Positions 1 to 14,676 of a stretch of DNA of 21,384 bases are shown piece after piece. The notes beneath the pieces were generated by a model. The model worked only from the letters and a program-made list of their open reading frames with translations, was not told the origin of the DNA and made no database searches. The position numbers and the translations under genes are program-made. Positions within the stretch are counted from its first letter, which is position 1; each line of letters begins with the position of its first letter. The stretch lies in the IMG/VR virus record IMGVR_UViG_3300022602_000480, positions 1-21,384 of that record; one strand, 5' to 3'. This DNA comes from a virus.

Positions 1-177
1 TGTTACCCACTCTTTTAGCCTGTTCCTAAATCTTTTCAAACAATCAAACCGCTTATAGGCGTATGCGATCCTGGTCCTGTTAAGGATACTGATTGAGTGC
101 TCACCACAGCTGAGTCTTCCCGCCCTGTGATCCTAGATCCAGTTTTTGGGGCGCACGACGTTAACCTGCGCTAGTCT
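1..177. other. Left-edge region with no recognisable gene, higher GC
   Basis: I see no supportable complete gene here. GC is about 50-53% over 61-180, against about 38% in the next 60 bases. The minus strand has no ATG at all. One minus-strand frame is open from about 132 to the left edge; it would read a basic, Arg-rich peptide (…SILNRTRIAYAYKRF…) that I do not recognise, and its only candidate start is a late TTG. A short inverted repeat GCGCA/TGCGC (151-171, 11-nt loop) is present but has no U-run, so it is not a standard terminator. It could be the end of a neighbouring gene, a structured RNA, or a junction; none is established. Confidence 0.4.
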
Positions 178-643: not shown

Positions 644-1033
644 TCACCACTGTGTTGCATAATCTTGATTTACGATCTTGGAGGAACATTTTGTTTGGCA
701 TTCTTGCCACTTAAATGTTTGAAATTCTTCTTTCCAAAAACTGTCAGACAAGGCTTCGGTTAATGTACAATGATGTAAATCGAACTGTTCTGCTAATGTT
801 TGCCATTCTTGATTATGACTATACCTATTTGCTACCCAACAGCATGGAAATAATCTACCCCGAGCATCTATATATAATCCTTTATTACCTATCTCGCATA
901 GTGGAACCACGGGTGTTCTATCTTGATTCTGAGTATATAATTCAAAATTAATTGGGTGTATCTTTTGTTTTTTTACCAGTAAAGTTGTACTGTTCTCTTT
1001 CAAATCTATGTGTGTTACTAATAAATTTATCAC
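644..1033 (-). pseudogene. C-terminal (SPASM/twitch-like) part of the second radical SAM protein, in a shifted frame
   Basis: This frame encodes CEIGNKGLYIDARGRLFPCC followed by W, then a later HC and a CQTKC motif. That is the Cys-rich auxiliary [4Fe-4S] (SPASM/twitch) region expected at the C-terminus of the protein encoded just upstream. The intact neighbour has the same block (IYIDAQGRVSPCCW) in one continuous frame. The nominal ATG at 1033 lies inside the coding region of the N-terminal part, so I do not think it is an independent gene. Reading passes cleanly from the upstream frame to this one if one A is removed from the A7 run (T7 at 968-974 on the + strand), giving FTGKKQKIHPINF and a composite of about 334 aa. 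It may be a genuine inactivating indel, a phase-variable or programmed +1 site, or a sequencing error. Confidence 0.7.
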
Positions 1034-1649
1034 TGGGCTCTAGTGGATCGTTTGCGCCATACCCAGGATATACACTGCCAAACTTGGTGCTTTTAGTCAA
1101 TTGAAATTGATCAACCCCGAGACTTTTTGCAAACTGTTTCATTAAACCCAATTGATTTTCGTTAAACTTAAATGCAATAGCAGCCCACACTATTTGACAC
1201 TGGCTAGAGAGACGTAATGTTTGTAACCCTGCAATGATACTGTTGTAGTCACTGTTAACACGATACTGGTTGTTGCTGTCATTGTCCCACCCGTCAATGC
1301 TGAAATGCACCGAATCGTCGCAGTCTAACAGTTGTCCAAGATCTGTCCACCAGGTTGATTTTTTATGTGATCCGTTGGTGATAATAACAATTTCCACAGG
1401 CTTTATGCTTTTTATATACTTGATCACTGGAATCAAGTTGTGTGCGTATATCGGATCACCGTCATCACCGCAGAAGGTAATCTTTTCTACATTGTCTTTA
1501 ATAAACTTTGGAGTAAAGTTACGTTCAAAGAACTCTAAATCTAATTCGGTATTAACCAGTGTGTTGGGCACTTCTTGTCTAGCACACCGAGGACACCGAA
1601 GCGTACATTTACTTGAAATCTCAATATGAAAGTGCCAGGTGGCTAACAT
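948..1649 (-). CDS. Second radical SAM protein, N-terminal part, interrupted by a +1 shift
   Basis: The 233-aa frame holds the radical SAM core. CTLRCPRC (C15, C19, C22) is the CX3CX2C cluster motif; FCGDDGDP matches the neighbour's CGNYGDP in the SAM-binding region; FSIDG is a later core motif. It ends after the A7 run with a short non-conserved tail (TKDTPN), and the expected Cys-rich C-terminal domain continues in the next frame (644 to about 973). The ATG at 1649 overlaps the upstream radical SAM stop by 7 nt and has a good ribosome site (GAGGT, 1656-1660, 6-nt spacer), so translation is probably coupled. The protein is a diverged tandem paralogue of the upstream gene. Family knowledge: such enzymes bind a [4Fe-4S] cluster and cleave SAM to start radical chemistry on peptides, sugars or cofactors. 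The substrate is unknown. Confidence 0.75.
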   Translation of the reverse strand: MLATWHFHIEISSKCTLRCPRCARQEVPNTLVNTELDLEFFERNFTPKFIKDNVEKITFCGDDGDPIYAHNLIPVIKYIKSIKPVEIVIITNGSHKKSTWWTDLGQLLDCDDSVHFSIDGWDNDSNNQYRVNSDYNSIIAGLQTLRLSSQCQIVWAAIAFKFNENQLGLMKQFAKSLGVDQFQLTKSTKFGSVYPGYGANDPLEPSDKFISNTHRFEREQYNFTGKKTKDTPN

Positions 1650-2479
1650 AATTCTACCTCACGTTGCCATTGTGCAGTGAATGTAGTTTTTTTATTATCA
1701 GTACTACATGTTGCACGGCATACAGGATTTGATGCGGTGGCAACCCCTTCAAACTTAAAGCCCTGCTGTCTAGAGCCCAACCAACAACACGGGCTAACAC
1801 GACCTTGGGCATCTATGTATATACTCTGTTCGTTTAAAGCAAAACACTCTATGGCACCAGTTTTTTCTAAAGGCGATTGCCACTCCTTAGGGTACTCTAA
1901 TCCTTCAGCCAACGGACGCTTGCTTACTTTAGCACGAAACCAAGTAAATCCCATATCTCTTGCTAGTTTTTCGCAAGCATCGACTTGATGTTCATTATGA
2001 CGATATACTAACATGTCCCAATGTGCCGATCCACCTGCAGAAATGAACGCTTGAGCATTAGCCATAACAATATTCCAATTTACATTTTTTCTATATATAT
2101 GATTGGTGTCTTCTAGTCCGTCGATGCTGAATACAACATAGTCTTGGGATTGATTAAATCTTGATCCAATTTGAGTCCACCACCAAGATCCGCGAATGCC
2201 ACCATTGGTGTTCATGCCTAATGTAATCTTGGGGTTAATTGACCTAAAGTAATCATATATTTCTAAAGTAGTTGAACCAGCTGCTGGATCGCCGTAGTTA
2301 CCGCACATAAACATCTTATCTAGATTTTTTATAAACTCAGAATTGAATTTATCTTTAATTTGATCTACAGACAAATGATGTTTTTTATTTTTATCAAATA
2401 CCAAATCAGTTTCTCTAGCACACAGCGGGCAAGCAGCTTGACAAACATCTGTAGGTTCAATGTGCAGTACTTTATACAA
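1643..2479 (-). CDS. Radical SAM enzyme with SPASM/twitch-like C-terminus
   Basis: An intact 278-aa protein. EPTDVCQAACPLC gives the CX3CX2C [4Fe-4S]/SAM motif (C13, C17, C20); CGNYGDP (59-65) is the GGE-like SAM-contact region; MNTNG (about 89-93) and FSIDG (117-121) are further core strands. The C-terminal domain has C212, the PCCW pair (C231, C232), CRATC (C254, C258) and a terminal C278, as expected for one or more auxiliary Fe-S clusters. The start is a TTG (2479-2477): an in-frame TAG lies two codons upstream and the next Met is past the cluster motif. The TTG overlaps the gp46 stop by 8 nt, implying translational coupling; a GGA about 8 nt upstream may serve as ribosome site. Aquatic T4-like phages are known to carry radical SAM genes, but substrates are undefined. 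A peptide-, glycan- or tRNA-modifying role is possible and unproven. Confidence 0.85.
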   Translation of the reverse strand: MYKVLHIEPTDVCQAACPLCARETDLVFDKNKKHHLSVDQIKDKFNSEFIKNLDKMFMCGNYGDPAAGSTTLEIYDYFRSINPKITLGMNTNGGIRGSWWWTQIGSRFNQSQDYVVFSIDGLEDTNHIYRKNVNWNIVMANAQAFISAGGSAHWDMLVYRHNEHQVDACEKLARDMGFTWFRAKVSKRPLAEGLEYPKEWQSPLEKTGAIECFALNEQSIYIDAQGRVSPCCWLGSRQQGFKFEGVATASNPVCRATCSTDNKKTTFTAQWQREVELC

Positions 2480-4241
2480 TTTCTACATCCGTATTGTAAC
2501 TAGTATATCCGTTTTCCTTAACCACGTGTAGGGTGTTGTTTACACGCCCGGCTAGCTCGTCTTTGTGAGAGACTAACCAAATACTTTTATTAGCGTCACG
2601 ACTCATTTTTTTAAGTATTGCTAAACTGTTTTCTACCCCCGAACTGTCCATGCCCGAATCGACTAGTTCGTCAATGAACAACAAGTTGATAGGTTGGTAT
2701 AGGCTTTCCCACACATCGCGGAAACTCCAACTTAAACTTAAGATCAAACGATTGCGTTCTCCGCGACTTAGATTATCAAAGTCTAAGTCTCTGCCTAATT
2801 CTGTAATACTCACAGTTAAGTCGTTATTGAACTTGACAGTGTGCGGTAAGCCAATGCGATCTAGATACTGACCTAAACGAGCATTTAGGTAACTTAGATT
2901 CTGATCAATAATACGTTTACGAATAAAAGAATCTTTATTGGTCAATAACTTCATTAAAAATTCTTGATGTTCTTTAAGATTAGTCAGTTCGTTAATTACA
3001 TCAAATTTAATTTCTTCGATGCCTTGACTCTGCATCTCTGCAATTTGATCACGGTATGGATCATCCTCTTCGGACTTAACTGCCAGCTGTTGCTGCAGGC
3101 TAGCTACACTAGCACGATGTTGTACAGCATCTTGTTCGCTGTCATAAAATGTTGTAGGAACAGCACCCAACTCACCTAAGGTGGTTAGTGCTTCGGTAAA
3201 AGCCGCTACATCATTGGTAAATGTGATTAAGTTTTCTTCAGCAACTGCGAGATCCTGCCGTTTCCCCGCCACGACCTGTAGATGTTTTGCGTCGTGGAAC
3301 TCTTGCCCACAGGTATGACACTGATGGTTGTTGAGTGTTGCGATCTCTTGTTCAAGTTTTTCAATAATCTTATTTTCGCGTATTTGGTCCTGCCGGGCAC
3401 GTCGAAGATGCGACTGTAGGTCACTGATATCTTTCTCCTTCTGGCGATATGTTGCAAGCGCCTGATGTGCTTTAATCTCTTCATCAATATCAATTTCGAG
3501 TAACTGATCGAGAGCGGTTTCCAAGCGTGAGATGTCTTCGTCATGTCGTGTTTTCCATAAGGTTTGCCTACGCTTTAGATTTTCAATTTGTTCTTCAATT
3601 CTTCGATTAGCGTCGGTTACTGCTTTAATACGAAATTCTTCTTGTGTGATAGCGTCTCGGGTAGTTTTACCAAGTTCTTTTAATCGGTCAGCTTTTTCAC
3701 TTAGTAGTGTAATACCCAATAACTGTTCAATAATAGTTCGTTGATCGTTTGCCTTAAGTGCAAGGAAAGGTTCAGTATAGGTATTAAGTGCCACAATGTG
3801 TTTAAACATGTCGTGGCTCATGCCCAGCATACGTTCTATATCTGCTTGTGTTTCTCTTGAGTCACCTTGTGCTTCGTCGGTAATTTCTCGTTCTACATCG
3901 CCAACAAAGAATCGCATAACATTAGGTTTGCGACCGCGTTCAATTCTGTAATCTATGCCGTCTTTTTCAAAATCAATAGTAACCATCATATTTTTACTAT
4001 TGGTCTTATTGATTAGGTTATCTTTTTTGATATTGGTAAGAGCATTGCCGTACATAGCATAGCTCAGTGCATTGATAATGGTAGTCTTACCCGTGCCATT
4101 TCTTGCACCCAAATCGTCACCGCCTAAGTCCAAATTTTCGCCTAGTACCAGAGTTAAATCGCGGCGATCAAAATTAACGGCTTGTGTAGTATTACCTACA
4201 CTCATAAAGTTTTTTACGGTTAGAGTTTTTATTTTAAACAT
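2472..4241 (-). CDS. 46: Recombination endonuclease subunit gp46 (SbcC/Rad50-type ATPase)
   Basis: A 589-aa SMC-like ATPase that pairs with gp47 to resect DNA ends for recombination-dependent replication and repair. Visible elements, numbered from the chosen Met: N-terminal FMSVGN resembling T4 gp46 (IMSVG); Walker A GARNGTGKTT (45-54); a long charged coiled-coil region (about 180-430) broken by the zinc-hook CHTC (308-311); the ABC signature LSRGER (491-496); Walker B LLFIDE followed by LVDSGMD (520-528); and the His switch LVSH. Length is close to T4 gp46 (about 560 aa). I start at ATG 4241 because MFKIKTLTVKNFMSVGN aligns with the family N-terminus; an upstream start at 4274 would add 11 unmatched residues. 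The ATG overlaps the stop of the SGNH-like gene by 8 nt, and the gp46 stop overlaps the radical SAM start by 8 nt. Confidence 0.95.
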   Translation of the reverse strand: MFKIKTLTVKNFMSVGNTTQAVNFDRRDLTLVLGENLDLGGDDLGARNGTGKTTIINALSYAMYGNALTNIKKDNLINKTNSKNMMVTIDFEKDGIDYRIERGRKPNVMRFFVGDVEREITDEAQGDSRETQADIERMLGMSHDMFKHIVALNTYTEPFLALKANDQRTIIEQLLGITLLSEKADRLKELGKTTRDAITQEEFRIKAVTDANRRIEEQIENLKRRQTLWKTRHDEDISRLETALDQLLEIDIDEEIKAHQALATYRQKEKDISDLQSHLRRARQDQIRENKIIEKLEQEIATLNNHQCHTCGQEFHDAKHLQVVAGKRQDLAVAEENLITFTNDVAAFTEALTTLGELGAVPTTFYDSEQDAVQHRASVASLQQQLAVKSEEDDPYRDQIAEMQSQGIEEIKFDVINELTNLKEHQEFLMKLLTNKDSFIRKRIIDQNLSYLNARLGQYLDRIGLPHTVKFNNDLTVSITELGRDLDFDNLSRGERNRLILSLSWSFRDVWESLYQPINLLFIDELVDSGMDSSGVENSLAILKKMSRDANKSIWLVSHKDELAGRVNNTLHVVKENGYTSYNTDVEIV

Positions 4242-4968
4242 ACTTTTTTGCACTATCATATAGCATATCTGCAATATACATGTGCCCGTCAGCCGTTGGG
4301 TGGTTCCCTAGCCAATGATTATTTGCAATTAATATACTTTTTAGTTGGTGTAAATAAAAGCTATTCCATCCATAAAATCTATTGGTATCTATTTGTCTAA
4401 GGTAAAATTGTATTTCGTCATATTCGGCACGTATCTGCTCGTCGGTCATTAAATCAAAATTTATTAATTTTTTAACTGAATCAATAAATTCAGGCCAGGG
4501 GTTTAACCAACGGTCTAGGTCATTATAATGTGTGTTTAACATTAGATAATTTTTATTGTATTGGGTAAACATTGTTTGTAGTTGTATAATTTGTTGTAGC
4601 CACAGTTTAAATGCATACAATCTATTGTACCAAACTTGGAATAACGTTCTTCCCCATATTTTATAATAATCTTCTTCACCAAAAAATTTGTGAACTAGCA
4701 AAGGATTAAAATGTGCTTCAAAATTATTGTCGGACTTGTAAAAAGTAAATTTAGCTACACTTGTCCATACTATTATATATAAATCAATATCTTTTTCTAA
4801 ATGCTTTATTGCTCTATATACAAAATGTTCATTTGAGCCAGACAAACACGAATCGTTATATACCTCTGCACCTAGTTTGTTACCTAACACCGCCGGCCAT
4901 GCCTGTGTGTTGGGGCTTTTTAAACCGTCGCCGTAAACCCAACTATCTCCAGCTACATAAATTTTCAT
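4234..4968 (-). CDS. SGNH/GDSL hydrolase-like protein between gp47 and gp46
   Basis: A 244-aa protein with the block I motif GDSW (7-10, Ser9 as candidate nucleophile) right after a short beta strand (MKIYVA). A GSN (44-46) is a plausible block II/III oxyanion element, and HPTADGHMYIA near the C-terminus (His223) is the usual block V context. The classical catalytic Asp three residues before that His is a Leu here (WLGNHP), so the catalytic triad may be incomplete. No signal peptide or membrane segment is visible, suggesting cytoplasmic action. Family knowledge: SGNH enzymes are esterases or acyl-transferases acting on lipids, glycans or acetylated polymers. The gene begins 1 nt after the gp47 stop (TAATATG) and ends overlapping gp46, so it is an insertion into the 47-46 pair and should be co-expressed. 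Substrate unknown. Confidence 0.75.
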   Translation of the reverse strand: MKIYVAGDSWVYGDGLKSPNTQAWPAVLGNKLGAEVYNDSCLSGSNEHFVYRAIKHLEKDIDLYIIVWTSVAKFTFYKSDNNFEAHFNPLLVHKFFGEEDYYKIWGRTLFQVWYNRLYAFKLWLQQIIQLQTMFTQYNKNYLMLNTHYNDLDRWLNPWPEFIDSVKKLINFDLMTDEQIRAEYDEIQFYLRQIDTNRFYGWNSFYLHQLKSILIANNHWLGNHPTADGHMYIADMLYDSAKKYV

Positions 4969-4969
4969 A

Positions 4970-5989
4970 TTATAGATTTCTATAGATGTCTAGCAACAAA
5001 TTTGGATCGTATTGTTTGCTGTCTATGGTATTAAGTTGACTATACACTATTTGATCCACAGACTCAAATTCAATATTACCGGCTATTTCGTAGTCGGTTA
5101 AGTCTGTTACCTTAGCGGGTATAAGTGTAATTTCTCTTAGTTGATATGTTTCAATAAATGTTTCTTTGATAAATGTAGCTTCTTCGTAACTGATATCAAT
5201 ATCCAAATTGACTCGGACATGCATATTTGGTTGTAGCATCGCCTCAGTGTGCTTGAGCACATCACTCAATTGGAATACACGGTATCTGGGTTGATCGGGC
5301 CAACTATGATAAACTGGCTCTTGGCCCCACTCTAAGATCATAAGACCACGATCATCGTCGCCGGCGTCAGCATAGTTATGCGGGAAACAGTTACCTAAGT
5401 ATGTAACATTTCCTCGAGTCTGTCGTTTATGAAAGTGCCCAGAATAAACGTGTTCAAATCCGGCTAAATCGTTTTTGGGATTTACTTCACCGTGATCGGG
5501 CATGGCCACCATGGCATTCATTAGGTATCCAGGCAACTCAAAGTGCCCAAACATATACTTGCCCGACAGTTTTTTCAGCTTCTTGTAGTCGTCGCCCACA
5601 AGCCACGGAGCAATAGTAACGTCGCCGATAGTAGTCCAATCGTTACAAATGTGGATGCGAGATAGGTGTTTGGCCCACTCCACACTTTGTACATCACGCT
5701 TGTCGCGATAATACAGATCGTGGTTGCCAGGAATAAAGTATGTTTGATCAAAGTTTTCATTTAGGTGCTCCAGAGCACGTAGGCTATAATTGAGTGTGAC
5801 TATATTAATGGATGCACGATTGTTGTGCCAGTCGCCCAAGAACAAGGCTGTTTCACAACCTTCGGCTCGGGCACGGGCAGTAGCCCATTTTATAAAATTG
5901 AGACAGTCCTCATTGTGTTGCGTACTGTTGGACTTCAAACCAAAATGCACGTCAGTGAAAACCGCTGCTTTTTTAAATAGATTAGTCAT
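4970..5989 (-). CDS. 47: Recombination endonuclease subunit gp47 (SbcD/Mre11-type)
   Basis: A 339-aa calcineurin-like metallophosphoesterase, the same length as T4 gp47 as I recall it. All nuclease motifs are present: DVH (13-15), GDWH (52-55), GNHD (88-91), GHFE (148-151) and GHFH (184-187), which ligate two metal ions. The C-terminal 120 residues would form the capping and gp46-binding part. The partner gp46 is two genes downstream, separated by the SGNH-like gene. The ATG at 5989 is preceded by ACTGTACTACT, with no visible Shine-Dalgarno, and by an AT-rich hairpin terminator after gp55, so it may have its own promoter or be made by readthrough. The order 55-47-46 is also seen in T4, which supports the call. 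Confidence 0.95.
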   Translation of the reverse strand: MTNLFKKAAVFTDVHFGLKSNSTQHNEDCLNFIKWATARARAEGCETALFLGDWHNNRASINIVTLNYSLRALEHLNENFDQTYFIPGNHDLYYRDKRDVQSVEWAKHLSRIHICNDWTTIGDVTIAPWLVGDDYKKLKKLSGKYMFGHFELPGYLMNAMVAMPDHGEVNPKNDLAGFEHVYSGHFHKRQTRGNVTYLGNCFPHNYADAGDDDRGLMILEWGQEPVYHSWPDQPRYRVFQLSDVLKHTEAMLQPNMHVRVNLDIDISYEEATFIKETFIETYQLREITLIPAKVTDLTDYEIAGNIEFESVDQIVYSQLNTIDSKQYDPNLLLDIYRNL

Positions 5990-11382: not shown

Positions 11383-14300
11383 ATGGGACAAATTAACGGC
11401 GTAGTAGGATCAAAATTACCCAAGTGGACGGACAGAACCCGTGCTTCGGGTATAAAATACGACGCGGCCACCTACATGGGAGTGGTCAAAGACAACTCTG
11501 ACCCTATACGCAGTGGACGACTGCGTGTTTGGATTCCTGACTTTGGCGGTACTGAGGATCAAGAAGATTATTGGCAAACAGTCAGCTATGCCAGTCCTTT
11601 CTTTGGAGCAACTTTTGTAGGTCCAGCAACAGCCAACAACGCATTCAACACTACTAATCATACCTATGGTATGTGGATGGTTCCACCCGACTTAAACAAC
11701 CAAGTATTATGCACTTTTGTCAACGGTGACCCAGATCGCGGTTATTGGTTTGCTTGTGTAAATCCCACACTTAGCCACCATATGGTTCCTGGTATAGCCG
11801 GTGCTCCACAGGCTGAAGAAGATACCAGCCATGTGTCAGCCACAGTTAAAAAAAGTTTGCTCAATGACAATAGTCAAACACTACCGGTTGTTGAATTTAA
11901 CGAAAATGACAATAATGCCTATACATCTGCATTTTACAATAATCCTAAACCTATACACGAAACACAGGCCAGCATACTATTTCAACAGGGTCTAGATCGC
12001 GATCCTGTGCGCGGTGCTATTAGTAGCAGTAGCCAACGAGAAAGCCCTAGTTCTGTTTTTGGTATTAGTACTCCTGGTAGAGCGCACGGTGCCGGCGATC
12101 CGTCTAACGACCCTAATTATCAAGCAAAACTTCAAAGCGGAACTTTCAAAACCACAGACTACGTGGTTAAAGCTCGTAATGGTGGGCATAGCTTTGTCAT
12201 GGATGACGGAGATGCTGCCGGTAAAGATAGACTAGTAAGATTAAGATCATCGGGCGGACACACTATTTTAATGAACGACACTGAAGGTGTTATGTTTATT
12301 ATCAACTCTACTGGTACAACCTGGATTGAGTTAGCCAAACATGGTGACATGAACATATACAATGCTGGCAGTTTTAGTGTTAGGTCTCAAAAAGATATAA
12401 ATTTACACGCCGACAGAAATATCAATATTAACAGCAAAGAACTTAATATCAATGCCGACACAGTTATTAATGCTGTATCTGCAGACATTAACATCAGTGC
12501 GTCGGCTACGGCTTTATTATACGGTGGTAAAACTAACATAGGTGCTGGTGGCGCATTAACTGCTGCCGGTAGCACAGTAACAGTAGGGTCTGGTGGTGCT
12601 ATTACCATTGCCGGGGGAACAGTTGACATTAACAGTGGTGCTGATGCTCCAGAAGTCTCAAGCAAAACACTACAAAAAACCGACTATCCTGACACCAGTT
12701 ATGATTCGGGTACCGGTCTTTGGAATTCTGTTACTGGTGCTGCATCAAGTATAGTTGGTGTTTTTCCAACACATCAACCCTGGATTAGATCTGCCACCCC
12801 TGGGGTTGATCCTAACGCTATTCCATCGCAGACCTTGCCAACTACAGTTTGTCCGCCCAAGCCCGGAACTGGACCAGCTAGTACAGTATTACCACCACCC
12901 AATGGTAATAAACTTGACTATGGAACACTACGCAATTTTGGCAAACCTAACAAGGGTGATGCACCATGGACCACAGACACCGAATTTTTGGATAAAGTAA
13001 AATCTGTTGCTGCCGCACTGAATGCCGACTACATAGATGTATTGGCATTTATGTACAACGAATCTGCTGGCACATACGATCCAGGTATTGTGAACAGCAT
13101 TGGTGCCACAGGACTTATACAGTTTATGCCAGCAACAGCCACCGGCTTAGGGACTACCACACAGGCGTTAGCACAGTTAAGTCGCGTTGATCAAATGGAC
13201 TGGGTATTAAAATATTTTAATTATTTTAGATTTAAACAAAAAGTACCTAATCCTAAACTACAAGATTTATATCTCTGCGTATTTTGGCCAGCTGCTATTG
13301 GACAAGCGGACAATTATGTAATTGCACCGGCCGGTAGTCAAGTTGCAAGTCAAAATAGGGGATTATGCGGCCCAGACGGAAGCATTACCTGTGCCAGCGT
13401 TGGTGCAGTAGCAGCAGCAAAAGTACCACTGGTCAAGCAGGCATTAGCCAATGCAGGAGCAGTAAATCCCAATGGAGTAGTACAGTCTGGTTCAGGAGTA
13501 GCAGTCACCGACGGATCGGGTAACCCGGTAACTACCGGCACAGCCAATACCACTGGGTCGTCATCGGGTAATGTAGGAATAACTAATGCTGCCAACAAAT
13601 CTATCACTAATCAATGTCCTTCGGACTGGTTATTCAAACCTGAGTTATACAAAGCCACAGGACCTATCAGTACTTCGGCTCCATACTTAACACAAACTTA
13701 TGCCACAAATATGCTGGCTGAGCTAGCCTACTTTGAAAGCAAGTGGGATTACACACTGACCAATCCAAACGGCATACTGGTTGGCAAATATCAAGTTGAT
13801 GCTAACTATCTGGCAGATGCCGGCTATGTTAAACCTGATGCTGTTGCACAGTACGGTGATGGCACACTCAAACAGGATGAAAGCTGGACTGGCACAGACA
13901 ATATCAACAGCCAAGCAGATTTTATTGCTAATAAACAAATACAAGACAGTTTGCAAAATCAAGAATTTAATGCTAACTACTCTAAACTATTATCCAATCA
14001 AGGTATATACCAGTCTGATGATATCTGTACAGCCGCTGGTATGCTGTTTGTAGCACACAAATATCGCAGTGCAGATTTAGCCGCAGAATGGCGCCGAACT
14101 GGATCAGTGGCCAATCCACCGGCCTATATTGGAGTAGCCGGCTCAGCTGAAGAATATTATAATCATGGTAGATATGCAATTGATGTTTTAAGTGCTAAAA
14201 ATTCTGCACCAGCAACTAATCAGGCTGTTGCTAAAGTTAATCCAACCAGCATAGATCCAAATAGTGTATTAAACTTTACATCAGGCACAGGCTCGTTAGA

Positions 14301-14676
14301 GTCATTCCAGGCAACCAGTAGCACATTCCAGTCGGCTATGCTACAGGCGGCCAAGGCATTTTTAGATGCCACTGGAACAAAAATAACTGTAAACAGTGCT
14401 TATCGTAGTCAAGAAAGTCAAACTGCATTGTACGATCGATGGGTAGCTGCCGGAGGAAAAATACCAGAAAAGCCCACTGCCGCCGGAATTACAACACCAA
14501 GTAAGAGTGTGGGCAGTCACGGCGGTATAGCCATAGACTCAAGTCAGTCCACTTTGGTAGCACAGACAATAGATTTAGCCAAATTTGGTCTGCGCTGGGG
14601 CGGAACATTTACCACTCCGGATGCTGTACATATACAGTTGTTGGCCTGGGCACCTGGTCAGGCAATACCACAATAA
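11383..14676 (+). CDS. 5: Baseplate hub spike gp5 with three predicted murein-hydrolase modules
   Basis: A 1097-aa protein (T4 gp5 is 575 aa). Domain order: OB-fold (about 30-130: YMGVVKDNSDPIRSGRLRVW, DFGG, GDPDRGYWFACV), as in gp5/VgrG; a Gly/Asn/Ile beta-helix-like stretch (260-420: HADRNININSKELNINADTV) for the needle; a lytic-transglycosylase-like domain (530-650) with Glu560 in YNES and GATGLIQFMP (574-583); a second lysozyme/transglycosylase-like domain (765-935) with Glu785 in FESKWD and GKYQ (801-804); and an M15/VanY-like peptidase (965-1092) with SAYRS (1005-1009), SHGGIAID (His1046, Asp1052) and DAVHIQL (His1083). Linkers are Gly/Ser/Thr/Pro-rich. Role: puncture the outer membrane and open the wall during injection. 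T4 gp5 has a single lysozyme inserted before the helix; here the enzymes follow it. The ATG lies 22 nt after the hub gene, with no clear Shine-Dalgarno. Confidence 0.85.
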   Translation: MGQINGVVGSKLPKWTDRTRASGIKYDAATYMGVVKDNSDPIRSGRLRVWIPDFGGTEDQEDYWQTVSYASPFFGATFVGPATANNAFNTTNHTYGMWMVPPDLNNQVLCTFVNGDPDRGYWFACVNPTLSHHMVPGIAGAPQAEEDTSHVSATVKKSLLNDNSQTLPVVEFNENDNNAYTSAFYNNPKPIHETQASILFQQGLDRDPVRGAISSSSQRESPSSVFGISTPGRAHGAGDPSNDPNYQAKLQSGTFKTTDYVVKARNGGHSFVMDDGDAAGKDRLVRLRSSGGHTILMNDTEGVMFIINSTGTTWIELAKHGDMNIYNAGSFSVRSQKDINLHADRNININSKELNINADTVINAVSADINISASATALLYGGKTNIGAGGALTAAGSTVTVGSGGAITIAGGTVDINSGADAPEVSSKTLQKTDYPDTSYDSGTGLWNSVTGAASSIVGVFPTHQPWIRSATPGVDPNAIPSQTLPTTVCPPKPGTGPASTVLPPPNGNKLDYGTLRNFGKPNKGDAPWTTDTEFLDKVKSVAAALNADYIDVLAFMYNESAGTYDPGIVNSIGATGLIQFMPATATGLGTTTQALAQLSRVDQMDWVLKYFNYFRFKQKVPNPKLQDLYLCVFWPAAIGQADNYVIAPAGSQVASQNRGLCGPDGSITCASVGAVAAAKVPLVKQALANAGAVNPNGVVQSGSGVAVTDGSGNPVTTGTANTTGSSSGNVGITNAANKSITNQCPSDWLFKPELYKATGPISTSAPYLTQTYATNMLAELAYFESKWDYTLTNPNGILVGKYQVDANYLADAGYVKPDAVAQYGDGTLKQDESWTGTDNINSQADFIANKQIQDSLQNQEFNANYSKLLSNQGIYQSDDICTAAGMLFVAHKYRSADLAAEWRRTGSVANPPAYIGVAGSAEEYYNHGRYAIDVLSAKNSAPATNQAVAKVNPTSIDPNSVLNFTSGTGSLESFQATSSTFQSAMLQAAKAFLDATGTKITVNSAYRSQESQTALYDRWVAAGGKIPEKPTAAGITTPSKSVGSHGGIAIDSSQSTLVAQTIDLAKFGLRWGGTFTTPDAVHIQLLAWAPGQAIPQ

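Follow-up and report, generated by a model that had tools for sequence, protein, structure and literature searches.

The open reading frame analysed here lies in a 21,384-nucleotide stretch of viral DNA (the window; positions 1 to 21,384 of IMG/VR record IMGVR_UViG_3300022602_000480) and probably encodes the central spike, a gp5-like hub, of a jumbo myovirus, its tip bearing a string of peptidoglycan-processing modules. The order along the protein is an OB fold, a beta-helix needle and then three modules, namely an SLT-type module, a second domain termed D2 and an M15-like module (Table 1). An initial annotation had described a hub spike with three such modules, and its reading frame, module order and residue numbers were all exact (E560, 13060–13062; E785, 13735–13737; H1046, D1052 and H1083); that the OB fold and needle precede every predicted wall-cutting module is likewise borne out by PF04717, phrog_13211 and the spike matches. 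IMG/VR scans with the hub, its C-terminal half, an M15 profile and a hub profile identified the SLT-D2-M15 order in 23 distinct hubs (hereafter triple hubs) of one uncultivated jumbo-phage lineage. Chance motifs were ruled out by the profile E-values and by conservation in the 23 hubs, and fusion through assembly error by the identical order across many independent contigs.

Table 1. Features of the hub gene, with positions in the window
Feature	Position	Strand	Basis
gp5-like baseplate hub protein, 1097 aa	11383..14676	+	phrog_13211 match and T4-like gene order
OB domain (Phage_base_V), about residues 30–130	11470..11772	+	PF04717, E 6.9e-7, over Pfam cut-off
Beta-helix needle, about residues 300–420	12280..12642	+	phrog_13211; DUF3540-type repeat match; spike matches VgrG 6u9e, 7aef
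PTHQPW motif, residues 462–467, just past needle	12766..12783	+	Conserved among hubs
Module 1, SLT-type lytic transglycosylase (predicted), residues 534–681, catalytic E560, GLIQF	12982..13425	+	9udh match, fold, conservation
Module 2 (D2), lytic-transglycosylase/lysozyme-like fold, residues 759–942, E785 and Q804	13657..14208	+	Model; Pootjesviridae homology
Module 3, M15-like zinc peptidase (putative), residues 969–1090; H1046, D1052, D1080, H1083	14287..14652	+	phrog_2649, PDB profiles, conservation

Residues 32–418 match phrog_13211 (‘baseplate hub subunit and tail lysozyme’, E 8.9e-34 in a PHROG profile search), a jumbo-phage hub family that covers the N-terminal 420 residues of the window hub. 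An OB fold followed by a beta-helix, encoded among baseplate genes in the order gp53-like, structural, hub, gp25 and gp6-like wedge, places the protein among the gp5-like baseplate hubs; late sigma factor and SbcCD-like genes lie upstream on the opposite strand. It is not a T4 gp5 tail lysozyme proper, in which a GH24 domain is inserted between the OB fold and the helix: no Phage_lysozyme match to the window hub was found with Pfam or PHROG, and the enzyme modules all lie beyond residue 530. The closest isolate hubs belong to PA5oct, Atu_ph07 and Rak2-like jumbo phages, with alignment limited to about the first third of the protein. The PA5oct hub (L022, 3417–4847), annotated as a tail lysozyme, stops after the needle, with no enzyme domain seen, and the hub of Phosso has a C-terminus related to that of Atu_ph07, placed behind a very long glycine-rich linker (L023, 3408–6002, and L024, 3414–6545, for the Atu_ph07/Phosso hubs). 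Elsewhere in the window (948–2479, minus strand), two adjacent ORFs match the same part of radical SAM PHROG 21308, resembling a tandem pair.

A motif of the PTHEPW/F type (PTHQPW in the window) was present in 73 of the 94 hub proteins tested, a count that includes some near-copies and one false match, in L069, within its SLT. In the enzyme-less hubs of PA5oct and SCTP-2 this motif sits at the extreme C-terminus, and it is possibly a spike-tip element, perhaps involving a metal. Because the motif that directly follows the needle is the C-terminus of enzyme-less hubs, the comparison suggests that the enzyme string hangs off the needle tip. Should the C-terminal half instead be an endolysin, released by processing and serving lysis rather than entry, the endolysin names borne by phrog_2649 and other matches would be explained. 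We consider this highly improbable, as the modules are all fused to the hub in a single ORF between the gp53-like and gp25 genes, and the record of the related PA5oct hub marks detection by mass spectrometry.

Glycan cutting by the SLT is the best supported of the three predicted activities, on the grounds of homology and of its model. It shares ~37% identity across 147 residues with a solved phage enzyme, PDB 9udh (phmmer E 2.6e-21; profile search E 2.1e-43), and its model superimposes on that structure with a Z score of 20.5 over 147 residues at 2.1 Å, and on phiKZ gp144 with a Z score of 9.9. It also matches PHROG 4928 (E 1.6e-26). Its Pfam SLT score was 19.9 bits versus a cut-off of 21.3, while the closer phage family matches well. 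The catalytic Glu in an ES/ET motif, the GLxQ motif and the SLT fold are all present, and E560 and GLIQF are invariant in 23 of 23 distinct triple hubs; the lytic-transglycosylase-like domain first proposed around Glu560 is thus upheld by homology, fold and conservation together.

D2, which in its wider extent covers about residues 745–945, had no Pfam match. It matches PHROG 27932 (E 8.9e-15), and tblastn ties it to gp5 of rhizobial Pootjesviridae, with E-values down to 3e-11. A model built from a 31-sequence alignment (pLDDT 92.4) gave Z scores of 8–11.3 against lytic transglycosylases, the phi6 lysin and lysozymes, among them Cj0843 (11.3), phiKZ gp144 (9.6), MltE (9.4) and the phi6 lysin (8.5). 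E785 is residue 27 of this model, by the C-terminus of its first long helix (13–28), where the catalytic Glu of the lytic transglycosylase/lysozyme superfamily is usually found. Foldseek alone returned no match under E 0.001 and a search of PDB sequences with the D2 profile found nothing, so the fold match derives solely from the model. A profile alignment of D2 with the SLT sets E785 opposite E560 but is weak and not significant (1% probability), and we accordingly do not claim descent of either domain from the other. The fold of this confident model, with a Glu ending the first helix, and the combination of catalytic Glu and motif Gln nevertheless place D2 in the superfamily, in keeping with the second lysozyme/transglycosylase-like domain that had been proposed at Glu785; structure prediction for this region thus gave a hydrolase-superfamily fold. 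The GKYQ motif noted earlier is present and can now be defined more closely, as it ends in Q804 and forms part of a D2 motif, E785...GKYQ. The Glu and Gln occur together in the window, in 13 other triple hubs and in Pootjesviridae, and are absent from one sister clade. With its motif intact, the window D2 may be catalytic, bearing in mind that a fold match alone is no proof of activity.

Module 3 matches PHROG 2649, an endolysin family (E 5.2e-13), and profile searches of the PDB matched the Ply500 peptidase 2vo9 (E 0.009), VanXY 4f78 and YodJ 4ox3, with Ply500 and VanXY nearest; its Pfam VanY score falls under the curated cut-off. D1080-A-V-H1083 aligns with DYPH of Ply500, which holds the catalytic acid and third ligand. 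The motif in relatives is SxHxxGxAxD ... DxxH, with a His-Asp spacing of +7, whereas the zinc motif of the window, SHGGIAID, has a spacing of +6 and is one residue short. The +6 spacing belongs to the window phage alone, as every M15-bearing relative with a full motif has +7. Assembly error was ruled out as the source of the deletion, which preserves the reading frame and is seen again in another record (L010/L137). Owing to the +6 spacing, we name the module M15-like rather than a proven M15 peptidase, and with the metal motif one residue short its activity in this phage is doubtful. Within a 573-residue model, the M15 portion was of middling to poor confidence, and the structure search of that model reported the SLT part alone. 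Thus the M15/VanY-like peptidase of the initial annotation holds for family likeness and for the presence of H1046, D1052 and H1083, but not for the spacing of the zinc motif.

In the tree based on the OB and helix part, the triple hubs known when it was made form one clade (support 94/88). Hubs with D2 only, SLT only or M15 only (the last being L163, L175, L176 and L178) exist in the family. Slot 1 is GH19 in L029 and L030 (Pfam 1.6e-6; PHROG 181, 8.8e-41) and a muramidase type in L036, through phrog_30077, which is common to the Atu_ph07 hub. The L161 hub (2004–5861; 1286 aa) carries four modules, a muramidase-type slot 1 (assigned by eye), D2, M15 and what is probably an SGNH module, with a Pfam GDSL match of 0.01 that is under the cut-off. 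In many cases (L048, L056, L071, L074, L080, L099 and others) a D2 or D2-like domain, often without the Glu, is encoded by the next ORF after a shorter hub. The full string was found in no isolate phage, no isolate match covers 80% of the hub, and the M15 module of L028 used as query gave no isolate-phage match. By sequence comparison, the string is a cassette array that evolves across relatives by cassette exchange and decay. The earlier suggestion of an ancestral injection toolkit is not supported by this distribution, in which single-module hubs occur widely, a single clade holds all SLT-D2-M15 strings and the occupant of slot 1 is exchanged. No evidence was found for the unusual host wall offered as its alternative, and a host search against genome contigs returned one partial match, which was uninformative. 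The Polynucleobacter-1 RNA (Rfam RF01718), present in the window at 38–176 (minus strand, 105 bits), also occurs in 11 of 20 related-phage contigs, both 354-kb contigs (L170, L176) included, and is absent from all 14 control genomes; this RNA rides on the jumbo-phage lineage and may hint at its host.

Both D2 residues are kept in 14 of the 23 triple hubs, the window included. Nine relatives have lost the Gln, and eight of those nine (L002, L003, L007, L008, L011, L012, L113 and L122, of which L011 is truncated) have lost the Glu too, leaving L114 as the one in which the Gln alone is gone. Eight tree rows with support of 100/99 lack the Gln throughout and, except for L114, the Glu. Since the catalytic pair is missing while the domain is retained, D2 catalysis appears dispensable in that close clade. 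Saturation of dS in comparisons of the window with its relatives meant that selection could be read just within the L002–L012 group, where pairs with unsaturated dS gave a dN/dS of about 0.05–0.15 for the decayed D2. These copies look like pseudoenzymes and, still being under purifying selection, are kept for something other than D2 catalysis. A rule that D2 decays only beside other enzymes was unsupported, as a large clade has a degenerate D2 and no other Pfam hydrolase.

Such retention without catalytic residues, together with the shortened M15 motif of the window, would fit a spike in which the SLT alone is a working enzyme, while D2 and the M15-like module are pseudoenzymes that anchor it, chiefly by binding the wall or as spacers. 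We regard that as unlikely for the window hub, in which D2 has both E785 and Q804, as in 13 other triple hubs, and every relative with a full motif retains the M15 ligands. Instead, the SLT, D2 and M15-like string after the needle likely opens the wall locally, a reading for which we infer catalysis, trimeric state, timing and virion location. By analogy with T4 gp5, the hub would be a trimer, giving nine modules per needle. Sheath contraction would drive the needle across the outer layers until the C-terminal string reaches the cell wall, where the SLT would cut glycan and D2 would either make a second cut of the lytic transglycosylase/lysozyme type or grip the glycan. The M15-like module would attack stem peptides or cross-links, which is likely for the family and uncertain in this phage, and glycan and peptide cuts together would produce a local hole for the tube. 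Two glycan-cutting folds and a peptidase-like module past the needle of one hub, as originally proposed, are supported by homology, fold and conserved architecture; the working of all three is less secure, given the D2 residues missing in a close clade and the short M15 motif. It is also conceivable, if improbable, that the modules have different targets, with the SLT acting on peptidoglycan and D2, M15 or both on capsule, exopolysaccharide, S-layer or surface-protein peptide. GH19 or SGNH-like modules in the strings of some relatives would suit such a division, but the solved structures nearest to the three modules belong almost entirely to murein enzymes.

More broadly, we tentatively propose that on spikes of this lineage as many as four wall-active modules form an exchangeable string, that cassette exchange brings in modules which then persist as pseudoenzymes gripping the wall, and that D2 represents a so far unmodelled muralytic family common to Pootjesviridae and uncultivated jumbo phages. 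D2 is a widespread domain family, and all three modules are new candidate murein-cutting enzymes. Natural relatives that lack, swap or decay single modules make the contribution of each activity to entry testable.

We found no description of three lytic modules on a gp5 spike in the literature, of which our coverage was incomplete. In a 2017 review, the virion lysins described have either a single lytic domain or two, those with two coming only from Gram-positive phages (PMC5380687); these (phi11 gp49, HydH5, CwlP) share with the window hub the presence of multiple lytic domains in one virion protein, but there is no three-module gp5 spike among them. The hub of Agrobacterium phage Atu_ph07 (gp699), a predicted lysozyme according to its description (PMC6102473), is likewise a jumbo-phage hub with a muramidase-like module past the helix; however, a trypsin-like domain comes next (PF13365, E 6.1e-17), and SLT, D2 and M15 are lacking. 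The hub of Vibrio phage 2.275.O (AUS03008; L026, 3438–6086) also belongs to PHROG 13211 and combines peptidase-like (M23) and glycan-cutting (GH24) modules, although these are two modules of other families and the M23 match is under the Pfam cut-off. Pootjesviridae gp5 proteins (phiM9, OLIVR5, P10VF) share the D2 domain with an intact E...GxYQ motif, but there D2 precedes the beta-helix and is the sole recognised enzyme module. Finally, T4 gp5 has in common with the window hub an OB domain, a beta-helix needle, a muralytic spike (predicted here) and T4-like baseplate neighbours; whereas T4 gp5 carries one lysozyme between the OB domain and the helix, the window hub carries three modules of other families past the helix.
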